Shown piece by piece: positions 346 to 62,992 of a stretch of DNA of 64,000 nucleotides. The notes under the pieces are model-generated. The model made no database searches, was not told the DNA's origin, and was given only the letters and a program-made list of their open reading frames with translations. The stretch lies in assembly GCF_012489685.1 (NCBI RefSeq), contig NC_080042.1, positions 27,595,158 through 27,659,157 on the forward strand, given 5' to 3'. A program made the translations under genes and the position numbers. Position 1 is the first letter of the stretch. Every line of letters begins with the position of its first letter. This DNA is from Lotus japonicus. Taxonomy: Eukaryota; Streptophyta; Magnoliopsida; Fabales; Fabaceae.

Positions 346-357
346 TAGCAACGTGGT

Positions 358-6505: not shown

Positions 6506-6589
6506 TTGAGTTGTTGTGAGTTTGGGTTTGAGCTAAACACTTGTGTGGGAGGACGATTCGATGTTTGGCTAACCATATTGCATCAATCG

Positions 6590-6818
6590 GGTGAATAACG
6601 GGAATGGTTCGCCTGTGCATCTCATGGTGAATAACGGGAATGGTTCACCACTGCATTAATGATGAATAACGGGAATGGTTCATCATACGGTGAATAACGG
6701 GAATGGTTCACCAAGAATGAATAACGGGAATGGTTCATCCAGGATGAATAACGGGAATGGTTCATCCATAGTGAAGAACGGGAATGCTTCACTTGTGGCA
6801 AACGGGAACGCGTCACAA
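6590..6818 (+). other. Stem-loop array H2 (8 units), family A
   Basis: Eight units each have a 10-base loop AACGGGAATG (AACGGGAACG in the last) between complementary arms. The arms include GGTGAAT/GTTCGCC, TGGTGAAT/GTTCACCA, ATGATGAAT/GTTCATCAT, GGATGAAT/GTTCATCC, AGTGAAG/CTTCACT and TTGTGGC/GTCACAA. The closing pair at the loop is T-G in some and G-C in others. Units are 25-40 bases apart. The array follows the conserved GGACGATTCGATGTTT motif. Confidence 0.85.
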
Positions 6819-16255: not shown

Positions 16256-18155
16256 GTTTGAAAAATGAAAAAAAAACAAAAAAATCACAAACCCACACTC
16301 ACGGCCGAGAGCTTATTGAAGGAAAGGAGGAGAAAAGTGATTTTTCCAATTCTTGACCGATCGACGTTCCGTTCGTTGCTACGCGTAGACCTCGAGGTAC
16401 TGATGCTTTTCCCTACCTCTGATCGTAAATTCTATCGCTTTTCTCTATGTCTTTCTGTGCTCAAAGTTTTGAGCTTTTTGTAAAACTGTCCAAATAAGTT
16501 GATTTCAGTGTCTAAACTTATTGCCTACGTGCTCTAGAGCATGAATATCCGGTTGTTTTCTGTTGAATCACACCGAATTGCCGCCGAGTTTCAATTCTGC
16601 TCAAAAACCCGTTTTTATGCTGAGGTTCCGCTTTTTGGATCAAAAACTCTCGACTGAGCTTAGCTTTAGTAGAATTAGTTGTTATAAATGTCGTTAGGAT
16701 CGACCCCATCTAATTTTTTTTTCGAAATTCTGATTTTGAGTTTCCGAGCTAAAAATATTGACTAAAATACCCCTGCGATAGTTTTCGACCCGATAATTTT
16801 TCTGAGAGTTTCCCTGGCCTAGATATCGCCTAAGAATACCTAGGAATTGATTTAGATCGAAGAAAAAGTTCGAAAACCCTATTTTCCATAGTAGCCGAAA
16901 CCTATTTGCTTGGGTACCGTGTCCAAAAATAATTTTTGGGTCTCTACGACCTGAGCCATTGCGTAGCTCTTTCAATTGTCGAAATTTTGGCACCGGTTTC
17001 GTGTCATTCCGAGTTCTGTAGCTCGAGTTATGCACGTTTTAGCGAATAAAGTGTTTTTGTACAAAACTTGAATCGAGTCAAAACTCATCCATTCGGGGAA
17101 AACCCTTCCATTCGTGCCTAAATGTTGTACTCTGAAGCTTCTTGAGCTTTGTCGAACGTTAGTTAGGATTGTTTCGACTGTATCGACTTAATTTGATTGA
17201 TTTTTGCTTTGTTTGCTCTAAGGTTCGTTTGTGGAAACCTTAGGCTTGACTAAGCAAGCTTGTGAGCGAGACCTGCACCGCGAGACCAGAACAACTCGAG
17301 GTTAGGGCAACTTACTTACTAGCTATTGATTTATAGGCGTCGATAAATTCGACTTGAATATTGCTTGATATTGAATATTGCTTGTTATTGAATATTGCTT
17401 GGGTATTGTTTATCGTTTGAAATTGGAAAATGTTTTCTGAGAGGCTTCGGCCGTTTACTGGTTTCTGTCTTATGATTTCCGCACCGTATTATTGTTGCAT
17501 CGCTCTTTAGAGCTGAATGTTGTTGAATTGATATCGAATTGTGCGTGTTGACGCGATTGCGGAGTGTAGGACATTTGAGTTGATTTTGTTGATCTTTCGG
17601 GTTGAGAGGAAACCCTAGGCAGGTCCTGACCAGAGGTCTGAGATCTAGCCCTCTTTGGAATACTTAGACTTTTCCCGGGGATTTTATTTGGGAGGTTTGG
17701 GAAACTTTGAATAGTTGGAATTTGGAACTTGAAGAAATTATGGAACTTGGATTTCGATAATAAACCTCATAATTTAATTAACTCAACTTGAAATGCTTTG
17801 ATTAATTAACGAGACCTTTGGGAAAATTTAAGAATTGGAAATGATTGTCAAAAACGGGAAATAGTCGAAAAGCCTTGAACTTGAGATGATTTGATGGTTG
17901 TCACGGGGATGAACCATAGTGACCATGGAAATGTCACTGAGTGCAATATGTACTCCGGCTTTTCATAGCCTAGTCGCAAGACGACTTTGATCTTCGGGTC
18001 CTTTTAAATTGAGATTTGTGGTTAAACTCGTACGTGTGAGGACGATTCGATGTTTTGTTAACCATATTGCATTATGCATATGTTTGGGGTTTGGGACGGT
18101 CAGAAGACTTGGCCTTCACGAAGAATACCAAGAGTGTAACTTCGACTTTGCGGCG

Positions 18156-18558
18156 CGAATCCGTATGTTCAAACCCGACGGGTTGGGCCGATTCGGCAAT
18201 AATTGTTGACACGCGCGGATCCGTATATTCAATCCAATGGATTGGATCGATTCGGCGGTAGTCACTCAGGCTCGCGTGAATCCGTATGTTCAATCCGATG
18301 GATTGGATCGATTCAGCGATTGCCATTTTAACTCGCGTGAATCCGTATGTTCAATCCGAGGGATTGGATCGATTCAGCGATAATCTTTCGACTCGCGCGG
18401 ATCCGTATGTTCAATCCGATGGATTGGATCGATTCGGCGATAGTCTTTGGACACGCGCAGCGTCCGTATGTTCGACTCTTTTGAGTGAACCGACTTGGCG
18501 TTGTCACTTGTTGCGTGTGCGAGTCCGTATGTTCAACCCGATGGGTTGGATCGACTCG
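18156..18558 (+). other. Stem-loop array H3 (7 units), family B
   Basis: There are seven units about 60 bases apart. Each has an outer stem (CGAATC/GATTCG, TGAATC/GATTCA, CGGATC/GATTCG or CGAGTC/GACTCG), a conserved CGTATGTT strand and an inner hairpin (TTCAATCC/GGATTGGA or TTCAACCC/GGGTTGGA, loop GAT). Both stems show paired changes between units. Unit 6 is divergent (ACTC/GAGT around TTTT). Confidence 0.8.
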
Positions 18559-25620: not shown

Positions 25621-26385
25621 AATACTGCTTGGGTATTGTTTATCGTTTGAAATTGGAAAATGTTTTCTGAGAGGCTTCGGCCGTTTACTGGTTTCTGTCT
25701 TATGATTTCCGCACCGTATTATTGTTGCATCGCTCTTTAGAGCTGAATGTTGTTGAATTGATATCGAATTGTGCGTGTTGACGCGATTGCGGAGTGTAGG
25801 ACATTTGAGTTGATTTTGTTGATCTTTCGGCTTGAGAGGAAACCCTAGGCAGGTCCTGACCTGAGGTCTGAGATCTAGCCCTCTTTGGAATACTTAGACT
25901 TTTCCCGGGGATTTTATTTGGGAGGTTTGGGAAACTTTGAATAGTTGGAATTTGGAACTTGAAGAAATTATGGAACTTGGATTTCGATAATAAACCTCAT
26001 AATTTAATTAACTCAACTTGAAATGCTTTGATTAATTAACGAGACCTTTGGGAAAATTTAAGAGTTGGAAATGATTGTGAAAAACAGGAAATAGTCGAAA
26101 AGCCTTGAACTTGAGATGATTTGATGGTTGTCACGGGGATGAACCATAGTGACCATGGAAATGTCACTGAGTGCAATATGTACTCCGGCTTTTCACAGCC
26201 TAGTCGCAAGACGACTTTGATCTTCGGGTCCTTTTAAATTGAGATTTGTGGTTAAACTCGTACGTGTGAGGACGATTCGATGTTTTGTTAACCATATTGC
26301 ATTATGCATATGTTTGGGGTTTGGGACGGTCAGAAGACTGGGCCTTCACGAAGAACACCAAGAGTGTAACTTCGACTTTGCGGCG

Positions 26386-26727
26386 TGAATCCGTATGTTC
26401 AAACCCGACGGGTTGGGCCGATTCGGCAATAATTGTTGACACGCGCGGATCCGTATATTCAATCCGATGGATTGGATCGTTTCGACGGTAGTCACTCAGG
26501 CTCGCGTGAATCCGTATGTTCAATCCGATGGATTGGATCGATTCAGCGATAATCTTTCGACTCGCGCGGATCCGTATGTTCAATCCGATGGATTGGATCG
26601 ATTCGGCGATAGTCTTTGGACACGTGCAACGTCCGTATGTTCGACTCTTTTGAGTGAACCGACTTGGCGTTGTCACTTGTTGCGTGTGCGAGTCCGTATA
26701 TTCAACCCGATGGGTTGGATCGACTCG
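26386..26727 (+). other. Stem-loop array H3 (6 units) in family B 3' LTR
   Basis: Same units as at 18156-18558 but one fewer: the unit with inner loop GAG is missing. Unit 1 pairs TGAATC with GATTCG. Confidence 0.8.
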
Positions 26728-31853: not shown

Positions 31854-32545
31854 TGTAAGACCTGGATTTTCAGAACAAGCTAATTTCCGACTCACGCGTA
31901 GAATCAGTGTAAGCGTGACAGGAGATTGATATTTGAGGAAGATTAATGAAGAAGAAAGTTCAGGAATTGCTTGAGGAATGTTGTGTAGTCGTTTTCGGAG
32001 TTAGTGCGAGTCGTCTGCACACTTGCCTTAGGGCGAGCGTGTCCAGAATAGGCTATTTCGCTCTTAAAGCAACGTTTTGAGTGAGATTTCGAACTCTCGG
32101 AAAATTTAAAGATTCTCTTTATTTTTCCATCGACCAGCGTTTCATTTCGGAACTCTGGACTGTACGCACGATAGGTTTCACTTTCCGGAAGCTCGACGAC
32201 TCTAATTTCTTTGCTTCGAAACCTTAGTTTTGAGCGATGGATGAACACTTTTTCTATTCGGGACTTCTAACGAAGATTCCGTCCGCGTTGCCAGACTTGT
32301 TTCGACGTTTCCAATCTTTCTTCAGTAGGAAGTTTTGTCGTTTGAGCATCACAGCAAAAAAGTAGTTTTTCGGGACAGACTAACTTACACCGCTTTTGGC
32401 GTTTTGGATATCGTTTTTCCCAAATCCTAGATATTTGTTTTGAGTTCTGGAATTCTGACGCCAGAATCTCTCTTAGAATTTCTCGGTGAACGTGCTGCAA
32501 AAATCGGAATCGCGAAATTTTCATTTTCCCGCGATTTCACCCGCC

Positions 32546-32553
32546 TATAAATA
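32546..32553 (+). promoter_or_regulatory. TATA box of family A solo LTR
   Basis: TATAAATA in the same CCCGC-rich context as 4853-4860. Confidence 0.7.
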
Positions 32554-34033
32554 GCGCGAAAAAGCAAAAATCCTCTCATTTTGCTCCTTTGAGGCCGCGA
32601 GTTCTAGGGGGAGAGGAGGAGGAGAGATTTTCGCGAAACCTTGACCAATCTTCGTGCAGTTCGTCCCTACTTCTAGGTATCGAGGTAACTAACACGAATC
32701 CTACCTCTGATTACTGTTTCTGCTGAGTTTCTGAAGTCGTTTCTGTGCTCACAGTTTTGAGCTTTTTCTAAAATTGTCTGATTTCTTCGATTTCTTGCTT
32801 GTGTTATGTTCTCTAGGTTCCCAAGAGCCTAAAACCTCTGTCAGTAAACTCTGATTGTGATCCAGTTGACAGGGATCTGAAAAACTGATTCAAAATCCTT
32901 TTTGTCTCACATTTCGAAACTTTATTGTCGAAAAGCTATAATCTGACTTCGTGCCTTTAGGATTTGTTGTCACGGATGTCATGAGGATCGTTGCTGTCAA
33001 ATTTGTTTTCAGAATTGATAACTTTGAAGTTTTGAGCCTTTATTTTGGACCAAAATGCCCCTGGATAGCCGTATTTCGACCCGAATGTCCGAAAATTGTT
33101 CTGACAGTTTCTTTGCCTGAGTTTTACCCTAAAACTACCTTGGAAACAGATTTGATCGAAGAAAAAGAGCCGAAGCCCTTTTTCCTTTGAGGCCGTGGGC
33201 TATTTCCTTTAGGGGGGGAGTTTTTCGTTTTCGAAAACTTGTCTTTTCGTACCCGGATGTCGTATTCTGAAGCTTTAATGCTTTGTCTATCGTTTATGTA
33301 TTGTATTGCGATCGAAATAATCGATTTTGTGTGGATTCTGCTTTGTTTTTCCTCCGAGGTTCAGTTGAAGGAACTTTGGAAGTTTCAAGGCATTCCTGTG
33401 AAGGAGATTTGATTTGCGAAGCTGGATCAGCTCGAGGTTAGGGCAACTTACTATACTAGCTATGATTGCATGATAGGCGTCGATCAATTCGACTTATGCT
33501 TTACTATGATATTGATTATGATGATGGTTTATTGTTATGAATGTTTTTATAACTTATGATGTTGATGTTGTGATGAATTGAGCGTTTTGACGCAACTTCG
33601 GAGTGGAGATTCATTGATCTGGTGATCTTTGATATTTCGGGTTGGATGAACAACCCTAGGCAAGTTCAAACGAGGGGTTTGAGACTTAGCCATTTGTTGG
33701 GATCCGTTGGTTTACTTAGACTTTCCCCGGGAAACTTCTTTTGGGTGGTTGGTTTTTGGAAAACCTAGAATGAATAGAATTTTGAAAACTAGAGACTTTG
33801 GGAGACTTAGACTTTGAGAAATAAACTCATAACCTGACTAATTCAATTCGAAACGTTTTTACTAAATGAATAATCATAGGAGAACTAAAGGGGAAAATAT
33901 TTACGAAAGACGGGGAAAAGTCGACCTTTGTTGTGGGTTTGGAGAGTTATCGGAATTGGGAAAAGCCACTAAGGTGAGCTATGGTGATGATTGAAAGTCA
34001 CCGAGTACTCTAGTACTCTTGGGAGGGTTGTTC

Positions 34034-34245
34034 GAGTCGTGTTGTATTGACCGACACTGACTCTGGCTTTGATTTTGGGTTATCTTGTTGTTGGAGCCGT
34101 GTTGTATTGACCGACACTTAGTGCTCTTGTTGTTTGGGCTGTGTTGTATTGACCGACACTTGACCCTTGTGTATTCTGTGGGTGGAGTTGTGTTGTATTG
34201 ACCGACACTTACTCCGAGTTGTGTTGTATTGACCGACACTAACTC
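34034..34245 (+). other. Stem-loop array H1 (5 units), family A
   Basis: The inner stem GTGTTG/CGACAC around TATTGAC is constant. Outer arms are GAGTC/GACTC, GAGC/GCTC, GGG/CCC, GGAGT/ACTCC and GAGTT/AACTC. The first and last differ by a C-G for T-A exchange in the same stem position. Confidence 0.8.
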
Positions 34246-34332
34246 ATGGGTTTGTTGTGAGCTTGAGTTGTGAGCTAAACACTTTCGTGGTAAGGACGAT
34301 TCGTTGTTTGGCTAACCATATTGCATCAATCG

Positions 34333-34560
34333 GGTGAATAACGGGAATGGTTCACCTGTGCATATCATGGTGAATAACGGGAATGGTTCACCTTGCATAA
34401 ATGATGAATAACGGGAATGGTTCATCATATGGTGAATAACGGGAATGGTTCACCAAGGATGAATAACGGGAATGGTTCATCCAGGATGGATAACGGGAAT
34501 GGTCCATCCATAGTGAAGAACGGGAATGCTTCACTTGTGGCGAACGGGAACGCGTCACAA
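34333..34560 (+). other. Stem-loop array H2 (8 units), family A
   Basis: Same design as 6590-6818. At 34484-34509 arms GGATGGAT/GTCCATCC flank the constant loop, whereas the equivalent unit in the other solo LTR has GGATGAAT/GTTCATCC: an A-T pair replaced by G-C. The last unit has TTGTGGCG/CGTCACAA, fully paired with one G-T, where the other copy has a mismatch. Confidence 0.85.
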
Positions 34561-34661
34561 ATCCGGATCATATTGTGCATTTCACGCATACATTCATTCT
34601 GACTTGAATTGTGTGCTGTTTGTTTATTGAAGCATTGTTAGAGCCATAACATGCTAGGATT

Positions 34662-34664
<3 letters not shown>

Positions 34665-34715
<51 letters not shown>
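34665..34715. repeat. TA dinucleotide microsatellite
   Basis: About 25 TA units lie between the hairpin array and the shared LTR block. Confidence 0.95.
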
Positions 34716-34717
<2 letters not shown>

Positions 34718-35539
34718 ACATATATCTATACCCCCTATCACATGTTGAGTGTATATCTACTTATTTCCGTGAGTTGACCCTAGCGCCTTGGCTTTGTTTG
34801 TATGTTTGTGTTTGGGCGGTCTGCCTGTTGCCAGATGTCGATGGCCGACTGGTGTTCGATGGTCTCTCCCTCGGGGGGGATCAGGTATGAGCTTGTGGAC
34901 CGTGCTGCCCCCACCGCTTGGGTGATCGATGTTGTGGGTCATCGGGCGACGTACCGGGGAAGGGTCATGGAGGACCGGACTGACGAGCGTGGACATCTGA
35001 CGAAAGGAGTTCTACGACGCATGGAGCTGAGCTTCAACTTGCCGACTTCAGTTCGCTGGGGACTCGGTACTGGAAGGGTAGGTTTAGGCAGGCGTCATAT
35101 TTTGTGTAGAGCTCTGATTCGTTTTGCTTTTGGGACAGGGTAGGTTCCCGACGCATGACTTGTCGTGTGGTGCTCTTGCTGAGGGATCACAGTGAGTTAG
35201 TCGGACCATAGGGGTCTTTGCTTAGGCCATTTTGAGGCCGACTTTCTACTAATGGATTGTAATTACAACTTTCTTACTCACACTTATGGATCTGTATATA
35301 TTTGCCTACGGGCACACTACTTTGGAGTCACTGCGAGTGTGCGGGACGTGGAAGTGCAGCTGAGGCTGTACAAGTTTATATTTGATGTATATTGGTTAGT
35401 TTAGTGGTTGGGTTATGTCTTTATTTTCTATCGCTTTATTTAAAAGGAATCAAACGAAAAAAAAAAATTACCTGTTTTCCGCGTAAAGTTTATTTTTGGT
35501 TACTAAGGTGGAACCTGGAAATCGGGGTGTTACATAACT

Positions 35540-36113: not shown

Positions 36114-37128
36114 TGTAACACCCTGATTTCCGGGTGTCACTTTAGTAACCAAAAATAAACTTTACGCGGAAAAGAGGTAATTTTTTTCCGATTGATTCCT
36201 TTTTAAATTAAAGCGATAGAAAATAAAGACATAACCCAACAACTAAAGTAACCGATGTACACCCAAATATAAACATGTACAGCCTCAGCTGCACTCCCAC
36301 GTCACACGCATTCGCAGTGACTCCAAAGTAGTGTGCCCGTAGGCAAATATATACAGATCCAGAAGTGTGAGTGAGAAAATTATAAGTACAATCCACGAGA
36401 AGAAAGTCGGCCTCAAAATGGCCTAAGCAAAGACCCCTATGGTTCGACTGACTCACTGTGATTCCTCAGTAAGAGAACCACACAAAAAGTCATGCGTTGG
36501 GAACCTACCCTGTCCCAAAAGCAAAACAAATCAGAGCTCTACACAAAATATGACGCCTGCCTAAACCTACCCTTCCAGTACCGCTCAAAGCTCCTCCTCC
36601 TCATCCTCGTCACTCGGCGAGTAGCTGTCAACGTCGGTGTCGGAGTCAGAGTCCAAGTCCACAGCGAACTGAAGTCAGCAAGTTGAAGCTCAGCTTCATG
36701 CGTTGTAGCACTCCTTTCGTCAGACGTCCACGCTCGTCAGTCCGGTCCTCCATGACCCTTCCCCGGTACGTCGCCCGATGACCCACAAGATAGATCACCC
36801 AAGCGGTGGGGGCATGTCGATCAACCAGCTCAAACCTGATCCCCGCCGAGGAAGAGACCATCGAAACCCAATCCACCGTCAACATCTGGCAGCAGGCCGA
36901 CCGCCCAAACACAAACAAGAAACCAAAGCCAAGGCGCTAGGGTCAACTCACGGAATAAAGTAGATATACACTCAACATGTGACATGGGGTATAGATATAT
37001 ATGTTGATATATACATATAAATAATCCTAGCATGTTATTGGCTCTAACAATGCTTCAAAAAATCAAACAACACACAATTCCAGTAAGAGTGAATGTATGC
37101 GTGAAATGCAATCAATATGATCCGGATT

Positions 37129-37302
37129 GTGAAGCATTCTCGTTCTTCACTAGTGAAGCATTCCCGTTCTTCACTCTTGGTGAACCATTCCCGTTATTCA
37201 CCGCATGATGAAGCATTCCCGTTCTTCATCAAAAGATACATTGGTGAACCATTCCCGTTATTCACCAAATGATGCAATGGTGAACCATTCCCGTTATTCA
37301 CC
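37129..37302 (-). other. Stem-loop array H2 (6 units), reverse
   Basis: Read on the minus strand the loop is AACGGGAATG (one AACGAGAATG), with arms GTGAAG/CTTCAC, GATGAAG/CTTCATC and GGTGAAT/GTTCACC. Block B has eight units. Confidence 0.8.
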
Positions 37303-37392
37303 AAATGATGCATGATGCAATATGGTTAGCCAAACATCGAATCGTCCTCACAACACAAGTGTTTAGCTGAAAACCCAATATCAAAAACCCAA

Positions 37393-37615
37393 GAGTTAGT
37401 GTCGGTCAATACAACACAACTCGGAGTTAGTGTCGGTCAATACAACACAACTCCCACAACCAAAACCTAGAGTTAGTGTCGGTCAATACAACACAACTCG
37501 AATAACCAAACCCAAAGTCAAAACCCAGAGTTAGTGTCGGTCAATACAACACAACTCGAATAACAAAACCCAAAGTCAAAACCCAGAGTTAGAGTCGGTC
37601 AATACAACACAACTC
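37393..37615 (-). other. Stem-loop array H1 (5 units), reverse
   Basis: Minus-strand units GAGTT-GTGTTG-TATTGAC-CGACAC-T-AACTC, more uniform than in the solo LTRs. Confidence 0.8.
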
Positions 37616-37821
37616 GAATAATAAGAGTACTAGAGTACTCGGTGACTTTCAATCATCACCGTAGCTCACCTCAGTGGCTTTCCCCAATTCCCAGTAACTT
37701 CAAGACTTGACGACTTTTCCCCGTCTTTCGCAATCATTTTCCCCTTTAGGTTCCCTATGGTTCATTCAATAATGGTAACGTTTTAATTTGAATTAGTCAG
37801 GTTATGAGTTCATTCAATAAT

Positions 37822-37990
37822 GACAACTCCAAGTCGTGCGTAGGGTAATCCTTCTCATGGATCTTCAACTGTCGCGAAGCATAAGCTATCACTCTTTTCC
37901 CTTGCATCATCACGTAGCCCTAGTCTCTTCGCGCACTTCTCAGATATAAACGAATGTGTAGCACCCGAATCAAATAACACAATCACTCAA
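37822..37990 (-). pseudogene. Protease fused to RNase H remnant
   Basis: On the minus strand VLFDSGATHSFISEKCAKRL (aspartic protease active site) runs straight into [20 protein letters not shown] (RNase H), so the whole RT is deleted. The partner copy is at 58292-58455. Confidence 0.85.
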
Positions 37991-38180
37991 TTTTAAGTAT
38001 CACGACAATGATACCAATCACAAACAATCAGCTAACAACTTAGCACACAAGTTCTACCCAAATCTCACCGCGGAAACATAGAAATCACTTCTACCCAAAA
38101 CAAAACACAACCGAGTTCACAAAACTCGCGTGTCCCAAACCCTAGTGCTCTAGTTCTCAACCGGAGCTCTTATACTACAA
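37991..38180 (-). other. Leader and altered primer site of C-related element
   Basis: Noncoding leader with a reverse PBS at 38166-38177. Block B reads GCTCTGATACTA (primer-site TAGTATCAGAGC), one change from the usual site; block A has a further change. Confidence 0.65.
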
Positions 38181-40872
38181 TGTAACGCCCCGATTCCTCG
38201 AGTGTCACACAGTAACCCAAACGTCACAAGTTCCATAAAGAATTTTCGTCGATTCAATTATTAATCTTTAATTAATGACAAACGTTCAATTTTACGAAAC
38301 TCTTGAAACTTAACCTTTTCAAAAACATGCAGAAGTAATCAACATCGCAAAACCTTTTAAATAACCAACTGAAATAAGTATGAAACATACGTCTAAAACC
38401 AAAGTAAATTACATCAAAATTTGATTATCCAAAATGAAAACAAAGTAAATTGTTCAATGCCCCAATCTCGGTAACTCTCAACCCAAAAAGAAAATAAATG
38501 TCTCTCAACCCAAACCCTATTCCTTGATCTCTTCCTCTTCCTCTTCTTCCCCTTCCTCAGAAGTGTAGTCGTCATCCGGTAATGGCTCGATGGTGAACTA
38601 CCTCAGCAAACGGTTCCTCAGACTTCGATAAATTTCGCACTTCTGCTGGAAGTATTGATTGACTAACAATCTAAAGAAACTCTGGGCCTTCAGCTCGTCT
38701 TCACTTAGGTTCTCCAAGATCCAAGGCTCCCCTTGCAGCGGTGAAAGCTCCTCCTCTTTCATCTCAGTCTTCGGCAGGTCCTCTGGTTCCACCGATGGTT
38801 CACTCTTCTCTACCAACATATCCTCAAACGGATCTGACTCCGACTCTGCCTCTAAGTTGGAAGATTGCTCTGATTCCAAGTCCGAAGGTGTTTGGAAGCG
38901 ATAGGGTGTGAACGGTAGTTCCACCCTTCCAGTGTGCAGTCGAGATTCAATCCATTCTCCCTTTTCGTGGGTGCACCGAAGAGTAGCATTTTCGACGTAG
39001 ATCCGGCGGACCTAGTGCGCGTCGGTCACCCAAGTCTCATCCGTGTGCTCGTCACGGAGTGTTAGTTCCCAAGAATGCACCGCATTCCTTGTCAGAGTCA
39101 TCTGCCCCCCCCCCCCACCAAAACAAACAAATAACAGATAATAGAGGGTCAGTTCCCATGCATAAGTCACAAATAAAACAGTTCATGATACTCATACAAT
39201 GAAAAATCGGTCTAATATTCTCACATCTAGAGTTAGCAACCCTAAAGTTCAGTAGTCAATCCACAAGTTCTCAAGGAGATCAACACAATCAATCCTTATC
39301 CCATGACTAAATCATGGTTATGACGTGGAGACCAACACAGTCGATCCACAAATTCTCCCTCGTGTGCAAGCAATCGTTTGTCTCTAACGGCACCATCGTT
39401 CTCATGGTCCATAGCCTGTACCCTAGCACAATAGCCATATCATTCACTACTTGCAAGCGAAGTTCGCATCTCTATGTTTGGCTACCAACATTATAATTTA
39501 GAAGTAAACCAATAACCATCATGCATAGCATATCAATGAGAGAGTAGGGTTTACCCCCATCCTTGCCAAAATAGAAAATTTGTCAAAAATCCCCCATCAC
39601 ATAAACAAGGTCAAACGCCTAACCTTAGGGAGCATTAGGGTTCGGCCAAATATCATCAATTTATCAAACTATCATGTCATCATACTTCTGTACAAATCAT
39701 GTATAAAAATCCAACAACTATCATCAACTCATATGCATAGACAAGAGACAAAAATATCCACGCACGCCTAGCCCTAAACAAATTTAGGGTTTCGGCCATA
39801 CCATATCTAGAGCATCATTAAGACTTGTTATCATGCCTCATCATACAACTCATAAAAAATCCAGCAAGCTTTCCATCAAATTCATCACACATAACTAATC
39901 TTTAACGCGTGGTATAAACTATCAACATAGATTCGAGGGTAAGCATCAAGTTTGGCATGATTTCGCCTAAAATTTTTCATAGATCATGGCATCAAACCTT
40001 TAGAGAAGGTAAAAACAGAAACTTGGCCCTAAAGCATGTTCAAGAAAAGCTCCACTCATCTTACAAAGGTTTTACATGTTAAAGAGACAACATATCATCA
40101 ATCATACAAGGTTTTGCACTAATGGTTGAAGAAGATGATACAGTCTCCTCCCTTGCCTTGCTTTTCAAGAACCTCCTTCTTCTTCCTTGCTTCATCTTAC
40201 TCGCGCGTCCCTCTCTCTTTCTCTCTCTCTCGGCGGCTCTCTCTCTTTCTCTCTTTCTCTCTCAAAAACCCTTTTTCTTTTCTTGTAGAAGACTTATGTG
40301 AATGGGTGTGTGTGTGTTGTGCCTTTCTATTTCAGCTCTTTCACTTGAAAAAGTAAAGAAAAATACTTCCCCCTCTGAACTTCAAAACCGGCGGCCAACC
40401 AAGCCCAACAACTAGGGTTTTCCAAACTTTTTTTATCCTATCTCACCAATATTTGAAAATAAAAATAAATCCTCACCTTTTTCGAATAAAAAACTGAATT
40501 ATAAAATAAATAATAAAAGAATAACTCCCCTTCTATAAATAAAACCCCAATCTTTGCATTTAAACCAGATTTTCCCCTCAAATTAAGCAAAACAAATCAA
40601 ATGAGATCTTCCCATATCTCTTTCTTTCAAGAACTCAGCCAACACTCCCCTTGGCACCCAAGAATTCGCCAATCATCAACTTGAGGTCAAAACCTCACAC
40701 ACTAATTTGCTTTCACACACTCAAATATTATTATTTCAAAAATAATAATATTTTCACACATTTCCTGCAAAATTCCACACGCATATCCCTCAAGAAATTC
40801 ATTAATCACTGAAAATTCACACTTATTATTTATTCAAAGTAAATAATAATATCATAAAAATAGGGTCTTACA
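38181..40872 (-). repeat. C-related LTR, reverse, 2692 bp
   Basis: It begins TGTAACGCCCCG and ends GGGTCTTACA. Read on the minus strand it starts TGTAAGACCC and ends CGGGGCGTTACA, like family C. It has a C run at about 39104-39115 and a hairpin array at 39273-39420. Its small C/T-rich repeats (40200-40265) are low complexity. Confidence 0.8.
39273..39420 (-). other. Stem-loop array H4-like, C-related LTR
   Basis: Two minus-strand units: GTGGA/TCCAC around a 15-base loop (39325-39349) and AAGGA/TCCTT around a related loop (39273-39297). Inside, GAC/GTC becomes GAT/ATC around the constant TGTGTTG. Two stem levels thus change in pairs. Near 39395-39415 a CCAT/ATGG hairpin with loop GAGAACG matches one in family C. 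Confidence 0.7.
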
Positions 40873-41739
40873 TAAGGAATGAGAGATTGTAACGCACAAC
40901 ATACCTGCAGTGTAGAACATGTCACATGCAGATTACAATTGTAATAAATAGCATATCTGAGTTATATTTCATTTTTTCACGAAATTATGTTTTTCAAATT
41001 GGTATCAATTTATTGTATTCGCAATGCATATTACAACTATAATAAATAACATACATGTTATCAGTTTCAATGTCTTTTTTCTTGTTTACAATGCATGTTT
41101 GCTTTCTTCTATACTGCGGGTAGCCAAGTAGCCTTCTTCGTGAATAGTGGTGGTGTAAACCGTATGACATAGTATTCACTAACCAAACAAAAGTCCTGCA
41201 AATTAAAACAAAAAAGTACAATTATATCTGAGCCAATACAAAAGAGATAGGACAATTTCATAAAAAAATAGGTAAGATTAAACCTTCCCCATATCGTGTA
41301 GAACAACAAAGTTTAGTGAAGCTATGGATCAAAAGATACATAATTGCAGGGAAAAGATTAAATCAATAGTATGGAAGAATTTTTTTTGTGCTGGAACTGT
41401 TATGAAGTTGATGTGTTTTATGACACAAAGTGTATGAAAAAGACGCAATTTTTGAAAATTTTAATTGTTTTTAAAAGATAAAATGGCAGATTAATCTTTA
41501 AAAGTCTTATTTTGAAAGACTATAAATTTTGATTATAGCTCTGATATTAAGTAAATATATCCATTCTAAATATAGTACTACATTCGCTCCTTATTAACTG
41601 TTCACATTGATGAAAACAAAAATTGTTGCTATATATTTGTCCACTTGGAGTTTCAAGATAGCATTAAATGGTGTTTTTCCAAGAAATGTCATTAGAGGAA
41701 CAATAAATGAGAAAATATAAAATACATTCTAAAGTGTTC
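40873..41739. other. Unassigned AT-rich DNA
   Basis: No ORF, LTR end or RNA gene that I can support. The same sequence is at 61383-62260. Confidence 0.4.
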
Positions 41740-42469
41740 CATCCAAGAACATAGAGATGAGGTATGGTACCTTGAATGAAAGGATCGTGATGCGAGAATC
41801 TAGAGAGAATTTAGAGCGTAACCGCTTAGAGATAGAGAGTAACCGAATTTCAAGCTTTTATTTCTCAAATGAGCTAAGAGTCCCCTTACAATTGGTAACC
41901 ACCCCCTATTTATAGGCGTGGGGTTGGGCCTAGCGCCCCTAACCGCCCTTAGTGGGCCAGCTGGGCCTCTAGAGGAGGCTCAAACTCTCTGGCTCACTCA
42001 CTGCCCTGGGTCAGGCGCACCTGGGCGAGGGCCCCTGGGTCTCGCCCAGTCCACAATACACCGAGCTCGAAGCATGAGAGGTAAGAGTGTCTTAATAATC
42101 AAAACTAACCAATGCCAAAGCCTAGTGATCAAGAATGATTGCCAACATGGCATAGTAAGTAAAGCTAAAGCTAATTTCTGATTCCCTTCACGAGCCTTTC
42201 CGAGTCCACGAGTCCACAGGTAGACTTGTGGCGACGATGCTTGGTTCCCTTGCCCGACTCCAGCTGCAATCGCTGTAATGATTTTTATTTAATGCACCAC
42301 TCCTACTTCCCGAAATACGCGTCTTTCCCCAACAATCATTTCATCCTACCATCTTAGGTCACAACTCCTTACTTAACTACGAACCACCTCCTTCCTTCTC
42401 TATTGCCCCATTCCTCACTGCCTACTACCCTCATACTCCTCCCGGCTCTCACATCAGCTTCTCCTGACA
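41740..42469 (-). repeat. Promoter-bearing LTR-like segment, possibly Tat-type
   Basis: Read on the minus strand it starts TGTCAGGAGAAGC, has CTATAAATAGG (TATA at 41907-41914) and then AATAAAAGC. The right end CTGACA (42469) is followed by ACCCCG and LTR D. It may be the 5' (U3) end of the LTR of the Tat-type element whose internal DNA is at 55003-56519. The left edge is uncertain. Confidence 0.45.
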
Positions 42470-43506
42470 ACCCCGTGTAAGACCTGGTTTTATGGCATAT
42501 TATTTTAATCATAATATTAAATAATATTATGTGAATTTCTTGTGCTATATGTGATATTATGCCTTTTAAAGAGGGTAATTAATTTTTAGAAGCAATATTA
42601 AGTCTTAGAAACCTCTAGACTTTGATGTGCGCGATGATACGAGCATTTTGAATTTAATATTGCTAGGGTTTTTGATGGCGAGTTTTAGGTCAAAATCGGC
42701 CCGACAAGAGCGATGAGTTGGCGAATCGAGTCACGAGGATGATTTCGTGGGCCACACCTTATGGGGAGGTTCTGGGCATGATTGTAAGAATATTCTATGA
42801 GGGAATATTCCTTACTTTAGTTTTTGAAGGTTTTATTTAAATAAAATGAGTTTTTATTTAAATAAAATGCATTTAAATAATTTTAACCTATGGTTTAATA
42901 TCAAAATTAATTCTGAAAATATTTTTGAGGTATTATGGAGCTGATGCACGAATTTTTGGAGCCAAGATTATTGATAAGGATTTTTTATTTTAAATTTGAA
43001 GTTTTGATGCATTTAGGAGGGAAATGGTGCATTTAATGCATTAATTATTTTGGGTTTTTTATTTAAATTATTATTCTAAATATTTTTTGGAGAAAATCTG
43101 AGCATGGAGAGTGTGTTGGGCGGCCAAGGCTTGAGGAGGAAGGAAAATGATACTTTTGCAAGTAATTTCCTTTTCTGGCTAGGTTTTATGAAAGAGAAAT
43201 TTTAGGGATTTTGATTCCTTGACTTTCAATTAATGAGAGATCAATATTTGAGTTTTTAAAACCTTCAAGGATCTTTTTATATCTGATTTAAAACCTTTTT
43301 GATTCAGCTTTAATTATTTAAAAAGTTAAGGATTTAAATGATAGTTTTAAAAGGGATTTAATTAGGAAATAAGCCAAATTTTGAGGACCGAATCAAGGAA
43401 GGTTGGAAGAGTCTAGAAACACTAAAATGGGTTTGGAAATTTCGTGGGTTTGGGCTTCTTCTTGGGGAGAAAGAAAAGCATTTAATGCTTGGCTCTCACC
43501 CCTCAC

Positions 43507-44619: not shown

Positions 44620-44776
44620 AGCGTCTGCATGCATGTGCACAAGCATTGACTAACAATAAACTATGAGATAGTTCCCTCTACTTGTGAAACTTAGAACTTA
44701 AAATAGTTCCCCTATTTGTGAATGTTAGCTTAGGGAAGAACTTGTGATTGATAGGGTAGTATACCCTACTTATAAA

Positions 44777-44959
44777 AAGTCCTAATCATACGATAGCACC
44801 AAAACTATTCCATATGATTAAGTAACAATGCAATCAATTAGAACGAAAAATCGTTCTGCAGACAATCAATTTTTACTCCTTGCAGAGTCACACAACCTAG
44901 CACAGAAGACCTATTCCCCAAAGACTCCCAAAAGACTCGACTAAGCTCTGATACCACAA
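44777..44959 (-). other. Extra leader with primer site beside left LTR
   Basis: It is nearly identical to 51714-51900, with the reverse PBS GCTCTGATACCA at 44945-44956. Both leader copies break at the same word, ATAAAAAGTCC. Confidence 0.8.
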
Positions 44960-45966
44960 TGTAACACCCCGATTTCCAGGTGTCACTTTAGTAACTAAAA
45001 ATAATTTTAAGCGGAAAACAGGTAATTTTTTTTCGTTTGATTCCTTTTAATAAAGCGATAGAAAATAAAGACATAACCCAACAACTAAACTAACCGATAT
45101 ACCAATATATACACATGTACAGCCTCAGCTGCACTCCCATGTCACGCGCATTCGCAGTGACTCCAAAGTAGTGTGCCCGCAGGCAAATATATACAGAACC
45201 AGAACTGTAAGTAAAAGTATCAAATATACAGTGATCCAAAAGAAAGTCGGCACCCAAAATGGCATGAACAAAAGACCCTTATACTCCGACAGACTCTCTG
45301 TGATTCCTCATCAAAAGAACCACACAAAAAGCCACACATCGGGAACCTACCCTGTCCCAAAAGTAAGACGAATCAGAGCTCTACACAAAATATAGTGCCC
45401 ACTTAGTCTACCCTCCAGAACTGCTCGCAAATCCTCCTCCTCGTCGCTCCCGACGTAGTAGTCGACATCAGTGTCAGAGTCAGAGTCCAAGTCCACAGCG
45501 AACTGAAGACAGTAGGTTGAAGCTCAGCTCCATGCGTCGTAAAAGTCCTTTCGTCAGACGTCCACGCTCGTCAGTCCGGTCCTCCATGACCCTTCCCCGG
45601 TACGTCGCTCGCTGACCGACAAGATAGATCACCCAAGCGGTGGGGGCATGACGGTCCACCAACTCATACCTGATCCCCCCCGAGGGAGAGACCATCGAAA
45701 ACCAGTCCGCCATCGACATCTGGCAGCAGGCCGACCACCCAAACACAAACATGAAACCAAAGCCAAAGAGCTAGGGTCAACTCACGGAAATAAGTAATTA
45801 TACACTCAACATGTGGCGGGGGTATAGATATATATATGTTGATATATACATATACATAGTCCTAGCATGTTATCGGCTCTAACAATGCTTCAATAAATCA
45901 AATAGCACACAATTCCAGTAAGAGTGAATGTATGCGTGAAATGAAATCAATATGATCCGGATAATT

Positions 45967-46166
45967 GTGACGCGTTCCCGTTCGCCACTAGTGAAGCATT
46001 CCCGTTCTTCACTATGGATGAAGCATTCCCGTTCTTCATCCTTGACGAAGCATTCCCGTTCTTCGTCGAATGATGCATTGGTGAAGCATTCCCGTTCTTC
46101 ACCATCGATGAAGCATTCCCGTTCCTCATTGAATTATGCATTGGTGAAGCATTCCCGTTCTTCACC
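45967..46166 (-). other. Stem-loop array H2 (7 units), reverse
   Basis: Minus-strand loop AACGGGAATG. Arms include GGTGAAG/CTTCACC, GACGAAG/CTTCGTC, GGATGAAG/CTTCATCC, AGTGAAG/CTTCACT and GTGGCG/CGTCAC. Confidence 0.85.
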
Positions 46167-46254
46167 AAATGATGCATGATGCAATATGGTTAGCCAAACA
46201 TCGAATCGTCCTCACAACGCAGGCATTTAGCTTAAAACCCAAACCCAAAACCCA

Positions 46255-46434
46255 AGAGTTTAGTGTCGGTCAATACAACACAACTCAGAGTTAGTGTCGG
46301 TCAATACAACACAACTCCAACAAACAAGAGTACTAAAGTACTCGGGAGATTAGTGTCGGTCAATACAACACAACTCCAACAATAAAACCCAATGTCAAAA
46401 CCCAGAGTTAGTGTCGGTCAATACAACACAACTC
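46255..46434 (-). other. Stem-loop array H1 (4 units), reverse
   Basis: Units of GTGTTG/CGACAC with loop TATTGAC, in outer GAGTT/AACTC or related arms. Confidence 0.75.
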
Positions 46435-47857
46435 GAATAACAAGAGTACTAGAGTACTCGGCGACTTTCAATCATCACCGTAGCTAACCTCAGTGGCTCT
46501 CCCCAATTCCCAGTAACTTCAAGACTTGACGACTTTTCCCCGTCTTTCGCAATCATTTTCCACTTTAAGTTCCCTATGGTTCATTCAATAATGAAAATGT
46601 TTTAAATTGAATTAGTCAGGTTATGAGTTTAATCCTTTGAAAACTAAGTTCTCTAAGGTCTTTAGTTTTCGAAATTCTATTCATTCTAAGTTTTTCAAAA
46701 ACCCACCAAAAGAAATTCCCGGGGAAAGTCTAAGTAGACCAACAAAGGGCTAAGTCTCAAACCTTTTGGTTGGACTTGCCTAGGGTTGATCACCCAACCC
46801 GAAATATCAAATAACACCAGTTCAATGGATCCCCACTCTGAAGTCACGTCAAAACGCACAATTCAATAACATCTCAACATCATTAGTTATGGAAAACATC
46901 ATAACATCAGTTCATCAACATAATCAACATCAAAGTAAAGCATAAGTCGAATTTATCGACGCCTATCATGTAGTCATAGCTAATAGTAAGTTGCCCTAAC
47001 CTCGAGCTGCTCCAGTCTCTTGGTCAAGGTTCTCTTCCCACAAATGCTCTGCAAAACCCAAAGTTCCTTCAACTAAACCTCGGAGAAAACTAAGCAGAAA
47101 TCCAACCAAAATCGATTAGCTCGATCACAATACAACTAATTAACGATAGACAAAGCATTAAAGCTTTAGAATACAACAATCGAAAACGAAAAACTCCCCC
47201 CCCCATGAAATAGCTCTCGACCATAAGGAGAAAAGAGCTCCGGCTCTTTTTCTTCGATCAAATCTATTTACAAGGTAGTTTTAGGGTAAAACTAAGGCAA
47301 AGAAACTGTCGGAAAAATTTTCGGACGATCGGATCGAAATACGGCTGTTCAGGGGCGTTTTGGTCCAAAATAAAAGCTCAAAACCTCAAAGTTATCACTT
47401 CGGAAAACAAATTTGACAGCAATGATCCTAACGACATTCGTAACAACTAATCCTAAAGGCACGAAGTCAGATTACTACTTTTCGACATAAAAGTTTCGAA
47501 ATGTGCGACAAAAAGGGTTTTGAATCAGTTTTTCAGATCCTTGACAACTCGGTCCAAATCGGCGAATACCGACGAAGGTTCTAGGCTCTTGGGCATGTAG
47601 AGAAGATACCCCAACAGAGAAATCAAGAAAAACGGACAGTTTTACGAAAAGCTCGAAACTTTGAGCACAGAAACAGCTAAAGAAACGCAGTAGAAACAGT
47701 GATCAGTGGTAAGAATCAAGCTAGTTACCTCGATACCTTGAAGTAGGAACGAACTGCGCGAAGATCGGTCAAGTTTCGGTGAAAATCTCTTCTCCCTCTC
47801 CTCTCCTCAATCCGCAGCCTCTATGTGAAGAAAATGAAGATATTTTGATTTTTTTAC

Positions 47858-47865
47858 TATTTATA
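47858..47865 (-). promoter_or_regulatory. TATA box of family A LTR (reverse)
   Basis: Minus-strand TATAAATAG. The counterpart in the other LTR is 54290-54297. Confidence 0.65.
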
Positions 47866-51900: not shown

Positions 51901-54900
51901 TGTAACACCCCGATTTCCAGGTGTCACTTTAGTAACTAAAAATAAACTTTACGCGGAAAACAGGTAATTTTTTTTCGTTTGATTCCTTTTAATAAAGCAA
52001 TAGAAAATAAAGACATAACCCAACAACTAAACTAACCGATATACCAATATGTACACATGTACAGCCTCAGCTGCTCTCCCATGTCACGCGCATTCGCAGT
52101 GACTGCAAAGTAGTGTGCCCACAGACAAATATATACAGAACCAGAACTGTAAGTAAAAGTATCAAATATACAATCATCCAAAAGAAAGTCGGCACCCAAA
52201 ATGGCCTGAACAAAAGACCCCTATACTCCGACAGACTCTCTGTGATTCCTCATCAAAAGAACCACACAAAAAGCCACACATCGGGAACCTACCCTGTCCC
52301 AAAAGTAAGACGAATCAGAGCTCTACACAAAATATAGTGCCCACTTAGTCTACCCTCCAGAACTGCTCGCAAATCCTCCTCCTCGTCGCTACCGACGTAG
52401 TGAAGCATTCCCGTTCTTCACTATGGATGAAGCATTCCCGTTCTTCATCCTTGACGAAGCATTCCCGTTCTTCGTCGAATGATGCATTGGTGAAGCATTC
52501 CCGTTCTTCACCATCGATGAAGCATTCCCGTTCCTCATCGAATTATGCATTGGTGAAGCATTCCCGTTCTTCACCAAATGATGCATGATGCAATATGGTT
52601 AGCCAAACATCGAATCGTCCTCACAACGCAAGCATTTAGCTTAAAACCCAAACCCAAAACTCAAGAGTTTAGTGTCGGTCAATACAACACATCTCAGAGT
52701 TAGTGTCGGTCAATACAACACAACTCCAACAAACAAGAGTACTAAAGTACGCGGGAGATTAGTGTCGGTCAATACAACACAACTCCAACAATAAAACCCA
52801 ATGTCAAAACCCAGAGTTAGTGTCGGTCAATACAACACAACTCGAATAACAAGAGTACTAGAGTACTCGGCGACTTTCAATCATCACCGTAGCTAACCTC
52901 AGTGGCTTTCCCCAATTCCCAGTAACTTCAAGACTTGACGACTTTTCCCCGTCTTTCGCAATCATTTTCCCCTTTAAGTTCCCTATGGTTCATTCAATAA
53001 TGAAAATATTTTAAATTGAATTAGTCAGGTTATGAGTTTAATCCTTTGAAAACTAAGTTCTCTAAGGTCTTTAGTTTTCGAAATTCTATTCATTCTAAGT
53101 TTTCCAAAAACCCACCAAAAGAAATTCCCGGGGAAAGTCTAAGTAGACCAACAAAGGGCTAAGTCTCAAACCTTGTGGTTGGACTTGCCTAGGGTTGTTC
53201 GCCCAACCCGAAATATCAAATAACACCAGTTCAATGGATCCCCACTCTGAAGTCGCGTCAAAACGCACAATTCAATAACATCTCAACATCATTAGTTATG
53301 GAAAACATCATAACATCAGTTCATCAACATAATCAACATCAAAGTAAAGCATAAGTCGAATTTATCGACGCCTATCATGCAGTCATAGCTAATAGTAAGT
53401 TGCCCTAACCTCGAGCTGCTCCAGTCTCTTGGTCAAGGTTCTCTTCACACAAATGCTCTGCAAAACCCAAAGTTCCTTTAACTGAACCTCGGAGAAAACA
53501 AAGCAGAAATCCAACCAAAATCGATTAGCTCGATCACAATACAGCTAAATAACGATAGACAAAGCATTAAAGCTTCAGAATACAACAATCGGATACGAAA
53601 AGACAAGTTTTCAAAAACGAAAAACTCCCCCCCCCCCCATGAAATAGCTCTCGGCCATAAGGAGAAAAGAGCTCCGGCACTTTTTCTTCGATCAAATCTA
53701 TTTACAAGGTAGTTTTAGGGTAAAACTAAGGCAAAGAAACTGTCAAAAATTTTCGGACGATCGGATCGAAATACGGCTGTTCAGGGGCGTGTTGGTCCAA
53801 AATAAAAGCTCAAAACCTCAAAGTTATCACTTCGGAAAACAAATTTGACAGCAATGATCCTAACGACATTCGTAACAACTAATCCTAAAGGCATGAAGTC
53901 AGATTACGACTTTTCGACATAAAAGTTTCGAAATGTGCGACAAAAAGGGTTTTGAATCAGTTTTTCAGATTCTTGACAACTCGGTCCAAATCGGCGAATA
54001 CCGACGAAGGTTCTAGGCTCTTAGGCATGTAGAGAAGATACCCCAACACAGAAATCAGGAAAAACGGACAGTTTTATGAAAAGCTCGAAACTTTGAGCAC
54101 AGAAACAGCTAAAGAAACGCAGTAGAAACAGTGATCAGAGGTAAGAATCAAGCTAGTTACCTCGATACCTTGAAGTAGGAACGAACTGCGCGAAGATCGG
54201 TCAAGTTTCGGCGAAAATCTCTTCTCCCTCTCCTCTCCTCAATCCGCGGCCTCTATGTGAAGAAAATGAAGAAATTTTGATTTTTTTACTATTTATAGGA
54301 AGGTGAAATCGCGGGGAAAATGAAAATTTCGCGATTCCGATTTTTGCAGCACATTCACCGATAAATTCTAAGAGAGATTCTGGCGACAGAATTCCAGAAC
54401 TCAAAACAAATCTCTAAAATTTGGGAAAAACGATATCTAAAATCCCAAAAGCGGTGTAAGTTAATCTGTCCCGAAAAACTACTTTTTGTTGTGATGGTCA
54501 GACGACAAAACTTTGTTCTGGAGAAAGATTGGAAACATCGAAACAAATCTGGCAATGCGGACGGAAACTTCGTTAAAAGTCCCGAATAGAAAAAGTCTTC
54601 ATCTAGCCCTTGAATTTAGGGTTTCGAAGCAAAGAAATTAGCGTCGTCGGACTTCCGAAAAGTGAATACTATCGTGCGTATAGTCCTAGGTTCCGAAATG
54701 AAACACTGGTCGAAGGAAAAATAAAGAGAACTTTTTATTTTCCCAAGGATTTGAAATCTCACTTAATACGTTGCTCTAAAAGCGAAATTAGCCTATTCTG
54801 GACACTCTCGCCATAAGGCAGGTGTGCAGACGACTCGCACTAATTCCTAAAACAACTACGCAACATTCCTCAAGCAATTCCTGAACTTTCTTCTTCATTA

Positions 54901-56519: not shown

Positions 56520-58279
56520 TGTTACACCCCGATTTCCGGGTGTCACTTTAGTAACCAAAAATAACCTTTACGCGGAAAACAGGTAATTTTTTTTCGTTTG
56601 ATTCCTTTTAATAAAGCGATAGGAAATAAAGACATAACCCAACAACTAAACTAACCGATATACAAATATATACACATGTACAGCCTCATCTGCACTCCCA
56701 TGTCACGCGCACTCGCAGTGACTCCAAAGTAGTGTGCCCGCAGGCAAAATATACAGATTCCAGAAGTGTGAGTGAGAAAATTATAATTACAACCCACTAG
56801 GAGAAAGTCGGCCTCAAAATGGCCTAAGCAAAGACCCATACAGTCCGACTGACTCACTGTGATCCCTCAGTAAAAGAACCACACGAAAAGCCATGCGTCG
56901 AGAACCTACCCTGTCCCAAAAGCAAAACGACTCAGAGCTCTACACAAAATTTGACGCCTGCCTAAACCAACCCTCCCAGTACCGCTCAAAGCTCCTCCTC
57001 CTCATCCTCGTCGCTCGGCGAGTAGCTGTCAACGTCGGTGTCGGAGTTAGAGTCCAAGTCCACAGCGAACTGAAGTCAGCAAGTTGAAGCTCAGCTTCAT
57101 GCGTCGTAGCACTCCTTTCGTCAGACGTCCACGCTCGTCAGTTCGGTCCTCCATGACCCTTCCCCGGTACGTCGCCCGATGACCCACAAGATAGATCACC
57201 CAAGCGGTGGGGGCATGTCGATCAACCAGCTCAAACCTGATCCCCCCGAGGAAGAGACCATCGAAACCCAATCCACCGTCAGCATCTGGCAGCAGGCCGA
57301 CCGCCCAAACACAAACATGAAACCAAAGCCAAGGCGCTAGGGTCAACTCACGGAATAAAGTAGATATACACTCAACATGTGACATAGGGTACAGATATAT
57401 ATGTTGTTACATATAAATAATCCTAGCATGTTATTGGCTCTAACAATGCTTCAATAAATCAAACAACACACAATTCCAGTCAGAGTGAATGTATGCCTGA
57501 AATGCAATCAATATGATCCGGATTGTGAAGCATTCCCGTTCTTCACTAGTGAAGCATTCCCGTTCTTCACTCTTGGTGAACCATTCCCGTTATTCACCGC
57601 ATGATGAAGCATTCCCGTTCTTCATCAAAAGATACATTGGTGAACCATTCCCGTTATTCACCAAATGATGCATTGGTGAACCATTCCCGTTATTCACCAA
57701 ATGATGCAATGGTGAACCATTCCCATTATTCACCAAATGATGCAATGGTGAAACCATTCCCGTTATTCACCAAATGATGCATGATGCAATATGGTTAGCT
57801 AAACATCGATTCGTCCTCACAACACAAGTGTTTAGCTCAAAACCCAATATCAAAAACCCAAGAGTTAGTGTTGGTCAATACAACACAACTCGGAGTTAGT
57901 GTCGGTCAATACAACACAACTCCCACAAGCAAAACCTAGAGTTAGTGTCGGTCAATACAACACAACTCGAATAACAAAACCCAAAGTCAAAACCCAGAGT
58001 TAGTGTCGGTCAATACAACACAACTCGAATAACAAAACCCAAAGTCAAAACCCAGAGTTAGTGTCGGTCAATACAACACAACTCGAATAATAAGAGTACT
58101 AGAGTACTCGTTGACTTTCAATCATCACCGTAGCTCACCTCAGTGGCTTTCCCCAATTCCCAGTAACTTCAAGACTTGACGACTTTTCCCCGTCTTTCGC
58201 AATCATTTTCCCCTTTAGGTTCCCTATGGTTCATTCAATAATGAAAACGTTTTAATTTGAATTAGTCAGGTTATGAGTT
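56520..58279 (-). repeat. Family A LTR, truncated, reverse (block B)
   Basis: Begins TGTTACACCCCG. H2 here has eight units (about 57526-57770), two more than block A; H1 has five (57862-58086). It ends at the same filler word (58278-58291). Confidence 0.85.
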
Positions 58280-58291
58280 CATTCAATAATG

Positions 58292-62986: not shown

Positions 62987-62992
62987 ACCCCG

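Follow-up and report, generated by a model that had tools for sequence, protein, structure and literature searches.

Ty3-type LTR retrotransposons of Lotus japonicus carry rows of tandem stem-loops in which the loop sequence is constant and the two arms of the stem change jointly. We conclude that these rows probably belong to the sense RNA leader of the elements, where selection for the fold of the RNA would maintain them, with a multivalent docking site as their likely function. This behaviour is shared by three distinct hairpin sequences from two LTR families, namely those of the H2 and H1 arrays of family A and of the hairpin array of family B.

Organization of the H2 array

The window, a stretch of 64,000 nucleotides of the L. 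japonicus genome, contains six H2 arrays (Table 1). In the array at 34332-34558 the loops begin at 34340, 34376, 34410, 34438, 34465, 34492, 34519 and 34543, and the stems are 6-9 pairs long. The initial annotation described eight units sharing one constant 10-base loop; the eight units are present, with AACGGGAATG as the loop of seven and AACGGGAACG as that of the eighth. All the arm pairs it quoted exist in the window, with GACGAAG/CTTCGTC located near 46051 and 52460 rather than in this array. The 6-bp stem type of unit 8 is common, occurring in 76 of the 103 arrays of our genome sample.

Loops with at most one mismatch number 43 in the window, against a mean of 3.97 and a maximum of 8 in shuffled sequence. 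Genome-wide, the exact H2 loop is found at 5627 + 5917 places (11544), compared with 611 + 605 for the reversed-reading pattern. The folding energy of the array as RNA lies below that of 200 out of 200 dinucleotide shuffles (z -3.22), and the centroid structure holds most of the hairpins. The complement strand also beats its shuffles (z -3.45); both strands thus fold well, and folding energy alone picks no strand.

A (TA)33 microsatellite lies just 3' of the array, at 34665-34730. Five loci (L005, L006, L007, L008 and L010) have a mini-unit, GGATGGATTTCATCC, without a loop between H2 units 5 and 6, and in three of them (L005, L006 and L010) the loop is also missing from unit 7. Kissing of the H2 loop with a complementary site in the plus-strand LTRs is unsupported, since the complement of the loop, with up to one mismatch allowed, is absent from both plus-strand family A LTRs.

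Table 1. Positions in the window of the hairpin arrays, selected units, host LTR and associated open frames
Feature	Position	Strand	Remarks
H2 array, main finding, eight hairpins	34332..34558	+	Loop AACGGGAATG in seven units, AACGGGAACG in one
H2 unit 1, GGGTGAAT-AACGGGAATG-GTTCACCT	34332..34357	+	
H2 unit 6, GGATGGAT-AACGGGAATG-GTCCATCC	34484..34509	+	Both-sides change relative to GGATGAAT/GTTCATCC in other copies
H2 unit 8, GTGGCG-AACGGGAACG-CGTCAC	34537..34558	+	One G.U pair
H2 array in second plus-strand family A LTR	6589..6818	+	LTR 4162-7761, ACCTG on each flank
H2 array W3, subfamily 2 copy	37127..37303	-	
H2 array W4, subfamily 3 copy	45965..46167	-	LTR 44960-48557
H2 array W5, subfamily 3 copy	52398..52576	-	LTR 51901-54990
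H2 array W6, subfamily 2 copy	57523..57772	-	
H1 array, five hairpins, core GTGTTG-TATTGAC-CGACAC	34033..34245	+	Variable outer arms (GAGTC/GACTC, GAGTT/AACTC, others)
Family A solo LTR holding the H2 array, TGTAAGACC...GTGTTACA	31854..35534	+	TAACT 5-bp target duplication on both flanks
TATA box CTATAAATAG	32545..32554	+	Some 690 bases inside the LTR
Family B hairpin array, constant CGTATGTT side	18155..18558	+	Paired changes in two helices
Family B hairpin array, second LTR copy	26385..26666	+	
Open frame with Gag domain and zinc knuckle	19666-20883		Downstream of family B LTR
Open frames between subfamily 3 LTRs	51251-51745, 50504-51067, 48854-50500	-	Domain scan

The host elements and the position of the arrays

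The LTR that holds the main array has both TG...CA ends and a short target duplication. Among 13 fetched loci with both LTR ends in order, eight consist of one LTR between identical 5-bp flanks (L003, L007-L012 and L020), and in two pairs the flanks are common across the element (ATAGA for L002/L001, TGTGT for L006/L005). The primer-binding site TTGTGGTATCAGAGC, which we take to fit initiator tRNA-Met, lies directly 3' of the LTR in L002, L006 and L013 and at window positions 51900 and 44959. Between the subfamily 3 LTRs the domains follow each other as protease, reverse transcriptase, RNase H and integrase. This order marks the Ty3 type, and family A is therefore Ty3-type; a gag domain is absent from all three frames scanned there.

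A TATA box was detected in 10 of the 12 family A copies examined, W3 and W6 being the exceptions. In these 10 copies H1 starts 1437-1532 bases and H2 1707-1929 bases past the TATA box (about 1.8 kb for the array at 34332-34558 in its own LTR), and the LTR ends 2.8-3.4 kb past it. The placement of the arrays 3' of the TATA box, as initially annotated, is thus borne out by the sequence of 10 copies, and the family A arrays sit between the TATA box and the primer-binding site. Given this position and the shared LTR plan, the arrays fall within the portion of the element for which transcription is expected. The same interval, from the TATA box to the LTR end (32545-35534 in the window), contains 40-69 ATG triplets across the 10 copies read, which makes it appear improbable that gag is reached by simple scanning.

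Two assignments were dropped. An AATAAA 1252-1275 bases past the TATA box in nine copies could have put the arrays in U5; it is absent in W4, and R and U5 were left unassigned. The W3 and W6 copies (37127 and 57523) had been considered as a separate very long LTR; they belong to long near-identical duplicates, 36114-43481 and 56520-64000, which are 95-98% identical in pieces and whose similarity continues outside the window, reaching position 65431 or farther. In these duplicates family A similarity starts only at about LTR position 1980, the array part being joined to other upstream sequence, and one LTR end is followed by TTTGGCGCCG, not by the family A primer-binding site. At the subfamily 3 LTR 44960-48557 (44700-45060, minus strand) another primer-binding site comes after the LTR, with about 200 bases of leader behind it, in what looks like an LTR-internal-LTR-internal arrangement. 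A Copia-type polyprotein remnant, with integrase preceding reverse transcriptase, occupies 349-3473.

Pairing states of the H2 stems across the genome

Our sample comprises 103 arrays and 741 H2 units from one genome, mostly from contig 1. Six arrays come from the window, and the first 20 loci are the first genome places of the exact-loop search, three of which (L017-L019), each with a single unrelated loop, were excluded before counting. A further 80 loci derive from two motif lists: 67 of the 87 new places of one (100 listed of 1395; the unit-8 motif has 704 + 691 places genome-wide) and 13 of the 15 of the other, those outside the window. Because the motif lists pick out an array by its last unit, one count of single changes omits last units from L021 on. 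The pairing counts, covariation score, nulls, common-versus-rare and pooled wobble tests include them, and the main wobble test was run both ways.

Arrays contain 1 to 9 H2 units. The loop is exact in 621 of the 741 units, and another 85 have the unit-8 form. Counted outward from the loop over all 741 units, the pairs are T.G 513, G-C 223 and A.C 3 at depth 1; A-T 637, C-G 82 and G.T 15 at depth 2; A-T 609, G.T 85 and G-C 45 at depth 3; G-C 731, A-T 5 and G.T 3 at depth 4; T-A 725, C-G 7, T.G 3 and C.A 3 at depth 5; G-C 483, A-T 246 and A.C 5 at depth 6; and G-C 546, A-T 81, T-A 78, A.A 19, A.C 7 and G.T 6 at depth 7. Depth 8 is mixed and often unpaired, and pairing is lost from depth 9 outward, so that the helix ends about where it had been placed at first reading.

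Changes on both sides of the stem can be followed within single units. Unit 6 is represented by GGATGAAT/GTTCATCC in one set of arrays and by GGATGGAT/GTCCATCC in another (44 units), and one subfamily 3 unit occurs as GACGAAG/CTTCGTC (W4, W5), GACAAAG/CTTTGTC (L022, L025) and CGACAAGG/CTTTGTCG (L023, L073). Among close copies, T.G and G-C replace each other at depth 1 in several of the unit positions. Hybrid units, apparently from recombination in the loop, are present in four loci (L009, L011, L031 and L046).

The H1 and family B arrays

The H1 array lies just upstream of H2. In the genome sample (475 units in 103 arrays) both core arms are exact in 423 units, and the sense T.G of the core is retained in 471, with T-A in 3 and C-G in none. 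The outer arms vary (GAGTT/AACTC, GAGTC/GACTC, GAGCG/CGCTC, GGGGTT/AACCC), and for some of them, for example GGAGCC with CTAGTGCTC, the simple scheme used here gives poor pairing. In the H1 unit flanked by ttcgagtc the core arms are GTGCTG/CGGCAC in seven loci, and the G.U intermediate GTGTTG/CGGCAC is found in L045, L066 and L067.

The family B LTR is distantly related to that of family A (72-73% over about 377 bases). The two patterns tried revealed no TATA box in it. Its array is oriented as the downstream Gag frame. The exact family B motif occurs at 315 + 229 places in the genome against 0 for the reversed-reading pattern. From 42 loci (40 fetched, 2 in the window) we recovered 378 units, of which 337 have the same length and 295 were used in the type tests; units of other length and the GAGTG unit, which has another register, were excluded from the type and pooled wobble tests. 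Among the 337 units, pair 4-36 is A-T in 167, G-C in 110, G.T in 59 and A.C in 1; pair 12-32 is G.T in 225, A-T in 66 and G-C in 44; and pair 14-30 is T.G in 287, T-A in 44 and C-G in 5.

Established stem types and the strand polarity of wobble pairs

We take a stem type shared by five or more arrays to represent a lineage that kept jumping, and a type confined to one or two arrays to reflect, for the most part, damage suffered after insertion. Non-pairs at depths 1-6 occur in 0 of the seven H2 types in the first class and in 17 of the 23 in the second (Fisher 0.0008). Family B gives a similar contrast, with a non-pair in 1 of 8 common against 20 of 31 rare types (Fisher 0.015); its common types contain 18 G.U cells, 0 A.C and one T.T mismatch, the latter in a single common type. 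Five H2 types are intermediate (3-4 arrays) and stand outside both classes. Two of these carry A.C: the hybrid unit and GTGGCA/CGTCAC (L044, L059 and W1).

A G.U pair in the sense RNA reads A.C on the opposite strand, and the two kinds of wobble therefore distinguish the strands. With H2, the H1 core and family B taken together, the distinct wobble states of the common types number 10 for G.U and 0 for A.C, whereas rare single-side changes comprise 20 G.U and 25 A.C (p = 0.001). Lowering the cut to 3 arrays, which brings in the intermediate types, gives 14 G.U and 2 A.C against 21 and 25 (p = 0.004); leaving out the last units selected by the search gives 10 and 0 against 20 and 26 (p = 0.001). 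The G.U to A.C ratios of common versus rare states are 3:0 versus 5:7 for H2, 2:0 versus 1:9 for H1 and 5:0 versus 14:9 for family B, and taken singly each array type rests on few states. In a second count, the distinct single changes in non-founder H2 variants are 11 to A.C, 10 to G.U and 8 to other mismatches. This near equality of A.C and G.U indicates that damage shows no strand preference. The two counts of rare changes differ in that the latter covers depths 1-7 relative to founder types and the former depths 1-6 relative to common types. The wobble bias is our main new argument beyond the first reading of the sequence, and it points to an RNA of sense polarity.

Template switching between the arms during replication can perfect quasi-palindromes without selection, a caution already raised in the initial annotation. 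The process would likewise yield paired changes, for which tandem quasi-palindromes are good substrates, and six rare changes on both sides with the pair kept are indeed present (3 in H2, 0 in H1 and 3 in family B). However, six is a small number, and template switching should also mend the inner T.G, yet this pair persists almost uncorrected in 513 of 741 H2 units (with T-A in 1 and C-G in 0) and in 471 of 475 H1 units. Nor does it give a reason for the excess of G.U over A.C in established states. We consider template switching an improbable explanation of the arrays.

A further alternative is that the palindromes function as DNA, either as cruciforms or as paired transcription factor sites, and repeated palindromes in the LTRs of other plant elements have been interpreted as cis-regulatory boxes in the accessible part of one study (PMC2829016). 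Three features of the arrays argue against this. In a cruciform, G.T in one strand corresponds to A.C in the opposite strand, so that no strand bias is predicted; the arrays lie 1.4-1.9 kb 3' of the TATA box in 10 copies, whereas a factor site is usually upstream; and the combination of variable arms with a constant centre is the reverse of a palindromic factor site. A function as DNA thus appears less probable still. The initial annotation had named selection on a folded RNA or a cruciform; the genome copies favour the RNA, and the cruciform is disfavoured by established wobbles that are mainly sense G.U.

Pairing relative to phylogenetic nulls

Across 181 distinct H2 units, 96.6% of the cells at depths 1-7 are paired. 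We compared this value with two phylogeny-based nulls of 500 simulations each, in which substitutions were re-thrown on the tree with uniform or matched column rates. The paired fraction averages 58% (uniform) and 69% (rate-matched) with maxima of 78% and 86%, and 0 of 500 simulations reach the observed value under either null. Sliding the register lowers H2 pairing to 30-52%. Changes on both sides occur at all 7 of the 7 depths, and the number of extra Watson-Crick types is 7, a value that the uniform and rate-matched nulls reach in 153 and 7 of 500 simulations.

A generic covariation score of the R-scape kind is 203 for depth 1 and 164 for depth 6, above the null 95% maximum of 125-131, and the other six of depths 1-8 fail; depth 7 ranks fourth among all column pairs. 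The covariation above a phylogenetic null that the first reading called for is therefore seen for the helix as a whole, while of the single pairs only 2 of 8 are significant. RNAalifold, which the same reading had proposed as a check, gives 57 pairs on the five window arrays used, 12 of them with a both-sides change.

Drift combined with conversion between the units of an array could copy whole hairpins and so spread paired arms without selection. The swaps of T.G and G-C at depth 1 among close copies look as if tracts spanning the loop had been copied, and the hybrid units show recombination in the loop. Conversion between units thus does take place; it spreads pair types but does not create them, and the both-sides changes at the seven depths each had to arise; all seven depths were reached in 28 of 500 uniform and 0 of 500 rate-matched simulations. 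We regard this explanation as very improbable. The least probable reading is that the hairpins are kept for interaction with a host small-RNA pathway, as proposed for the LTR palindromes of maize Sireviruses, where small RNAs are in excess over structured LTR regions. Small-RNA targeting has been argued, in the part of that work available, to favour loss of structure (PMC10760457). Stems of 7-9 pairs are, in addition, short for Dicer-type processing.

Taken together, these observations fit selection on a folded sense RNA and neither a DNA cruciform nor unselected template switching. Several results speak against this reading: the weak generic score for single pairs, the few states behind the wobble bias within each array type, the two A.C types in 3-4 arrays, the variable unit number, the A.A at depth 7 in 19 units, the T.T of a common family B type, the lack of a TATA box match in the family B LTRs and the good folding of the antisense strand. 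In our judgement it is nevertheless probable that selection acts on the structure of the sense RNA.

Comparison with known systems

Sirevirus LTRs of the Copia type also contain several short palindromes capable of forming hairpins in plant LTRs, as far as the accessible parts of two studies describe them (PMC2829016, PMC10760457). According to the same parts, their motifs precede the TATA box, and a CGG-CCG palindrome core is shared by every element except one. By contrast, the arrays described here lie downstream of the TATA box in Ty3-type elements, lack a CGG-CCG core and combine a constant loop, AACGGGAATG, with covarying arms. Such arrays were not found described in the literature that we covered, which consisted largely of openly available text.

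Other structured RNAs share single features with the arrays. The insertions in enod40 RNA are transposon-derived plant stem-loops related to tandem repeats; from what the available text reports, they differ in having monomers of 60-210 bases, with a single exception, in residing in a cellular non-coding RNA and in lacking a constant-loop array (PMC10578108). Retrozymes, in the portion of the source at hand, place a structured RNA motif, the hammerhead ribozyme, in plant retrotransposons (PMC4918200), whereas the 64,000 bases of the window gave 0 matches at the gathering score to the Rfam covariance models (4227 families).

The psi leaders of retroviruses are not known to be built as a tandem array of one repeated hairpin, and the interval from the TATA box to the LTR end is 2.8-3.4 kb in the elements studied here. 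In the way they work they would offer a parallel, as a structured sense RNA 5' of gag with several sites for many copies of one protein; the HIV-1 leader binds about two dozen copies of nucleocapsid, according to the accessible text (PMC7395439).

A proposed role in the RNA leader

We suggest that the most likely role of the arrays is that of a multivalent element for protein docking or packaging in the leader. The loop sequence would be retained as a recognition motif held open by the stem. The stem would be retained merely as a stem, its two arms drifting jointly via G.U intermediates. Many copies of the hairpin could then bind many copies of one protein, and the copy number would fit avidity. 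The transcription of the arrays, the protein partner and the step of the life cycle at which they would act are inferred here.

The binding of about two dozen nucleocapsids by the HIV-1 leader makes the element's own Gag the first candidate partner, which may act in packaging or dimerisation of the genomic RNA. We put forward Gag only tentatively, on this analogy, at somewhat below even chances. A host RNA-binding protein with a part in translation or export would be the second choice.

A more speculative reading, which we hold doubtful as a whole, is that a family-specific constant loop on drifting stems serves as an address label by which Gag may single out the RNA of its own element from thousands of related transcripts. 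There would then be two such labels in family A (UAUUGAC and AACGGGAAUG) and a different one in family B. If true, the arrays would represent a class of cis-acting element new to plant retrotransposons, based on family-specific multivalent recognition.

To our knowledge, little is known of the cis-acting RNA signals of plant LTR retrotransposons. The thousands of natural variants of these hairpins (11544 exact loops) allow selection on RNA structure to be read from the copies, and make it possible to tell apart, ahead of experiment, the recognition motif (the loop), the free part (the stem sequence) and the strand (sense). If the partner is Gag, the arrays would offer a direct test of how an element selects its own RNA.
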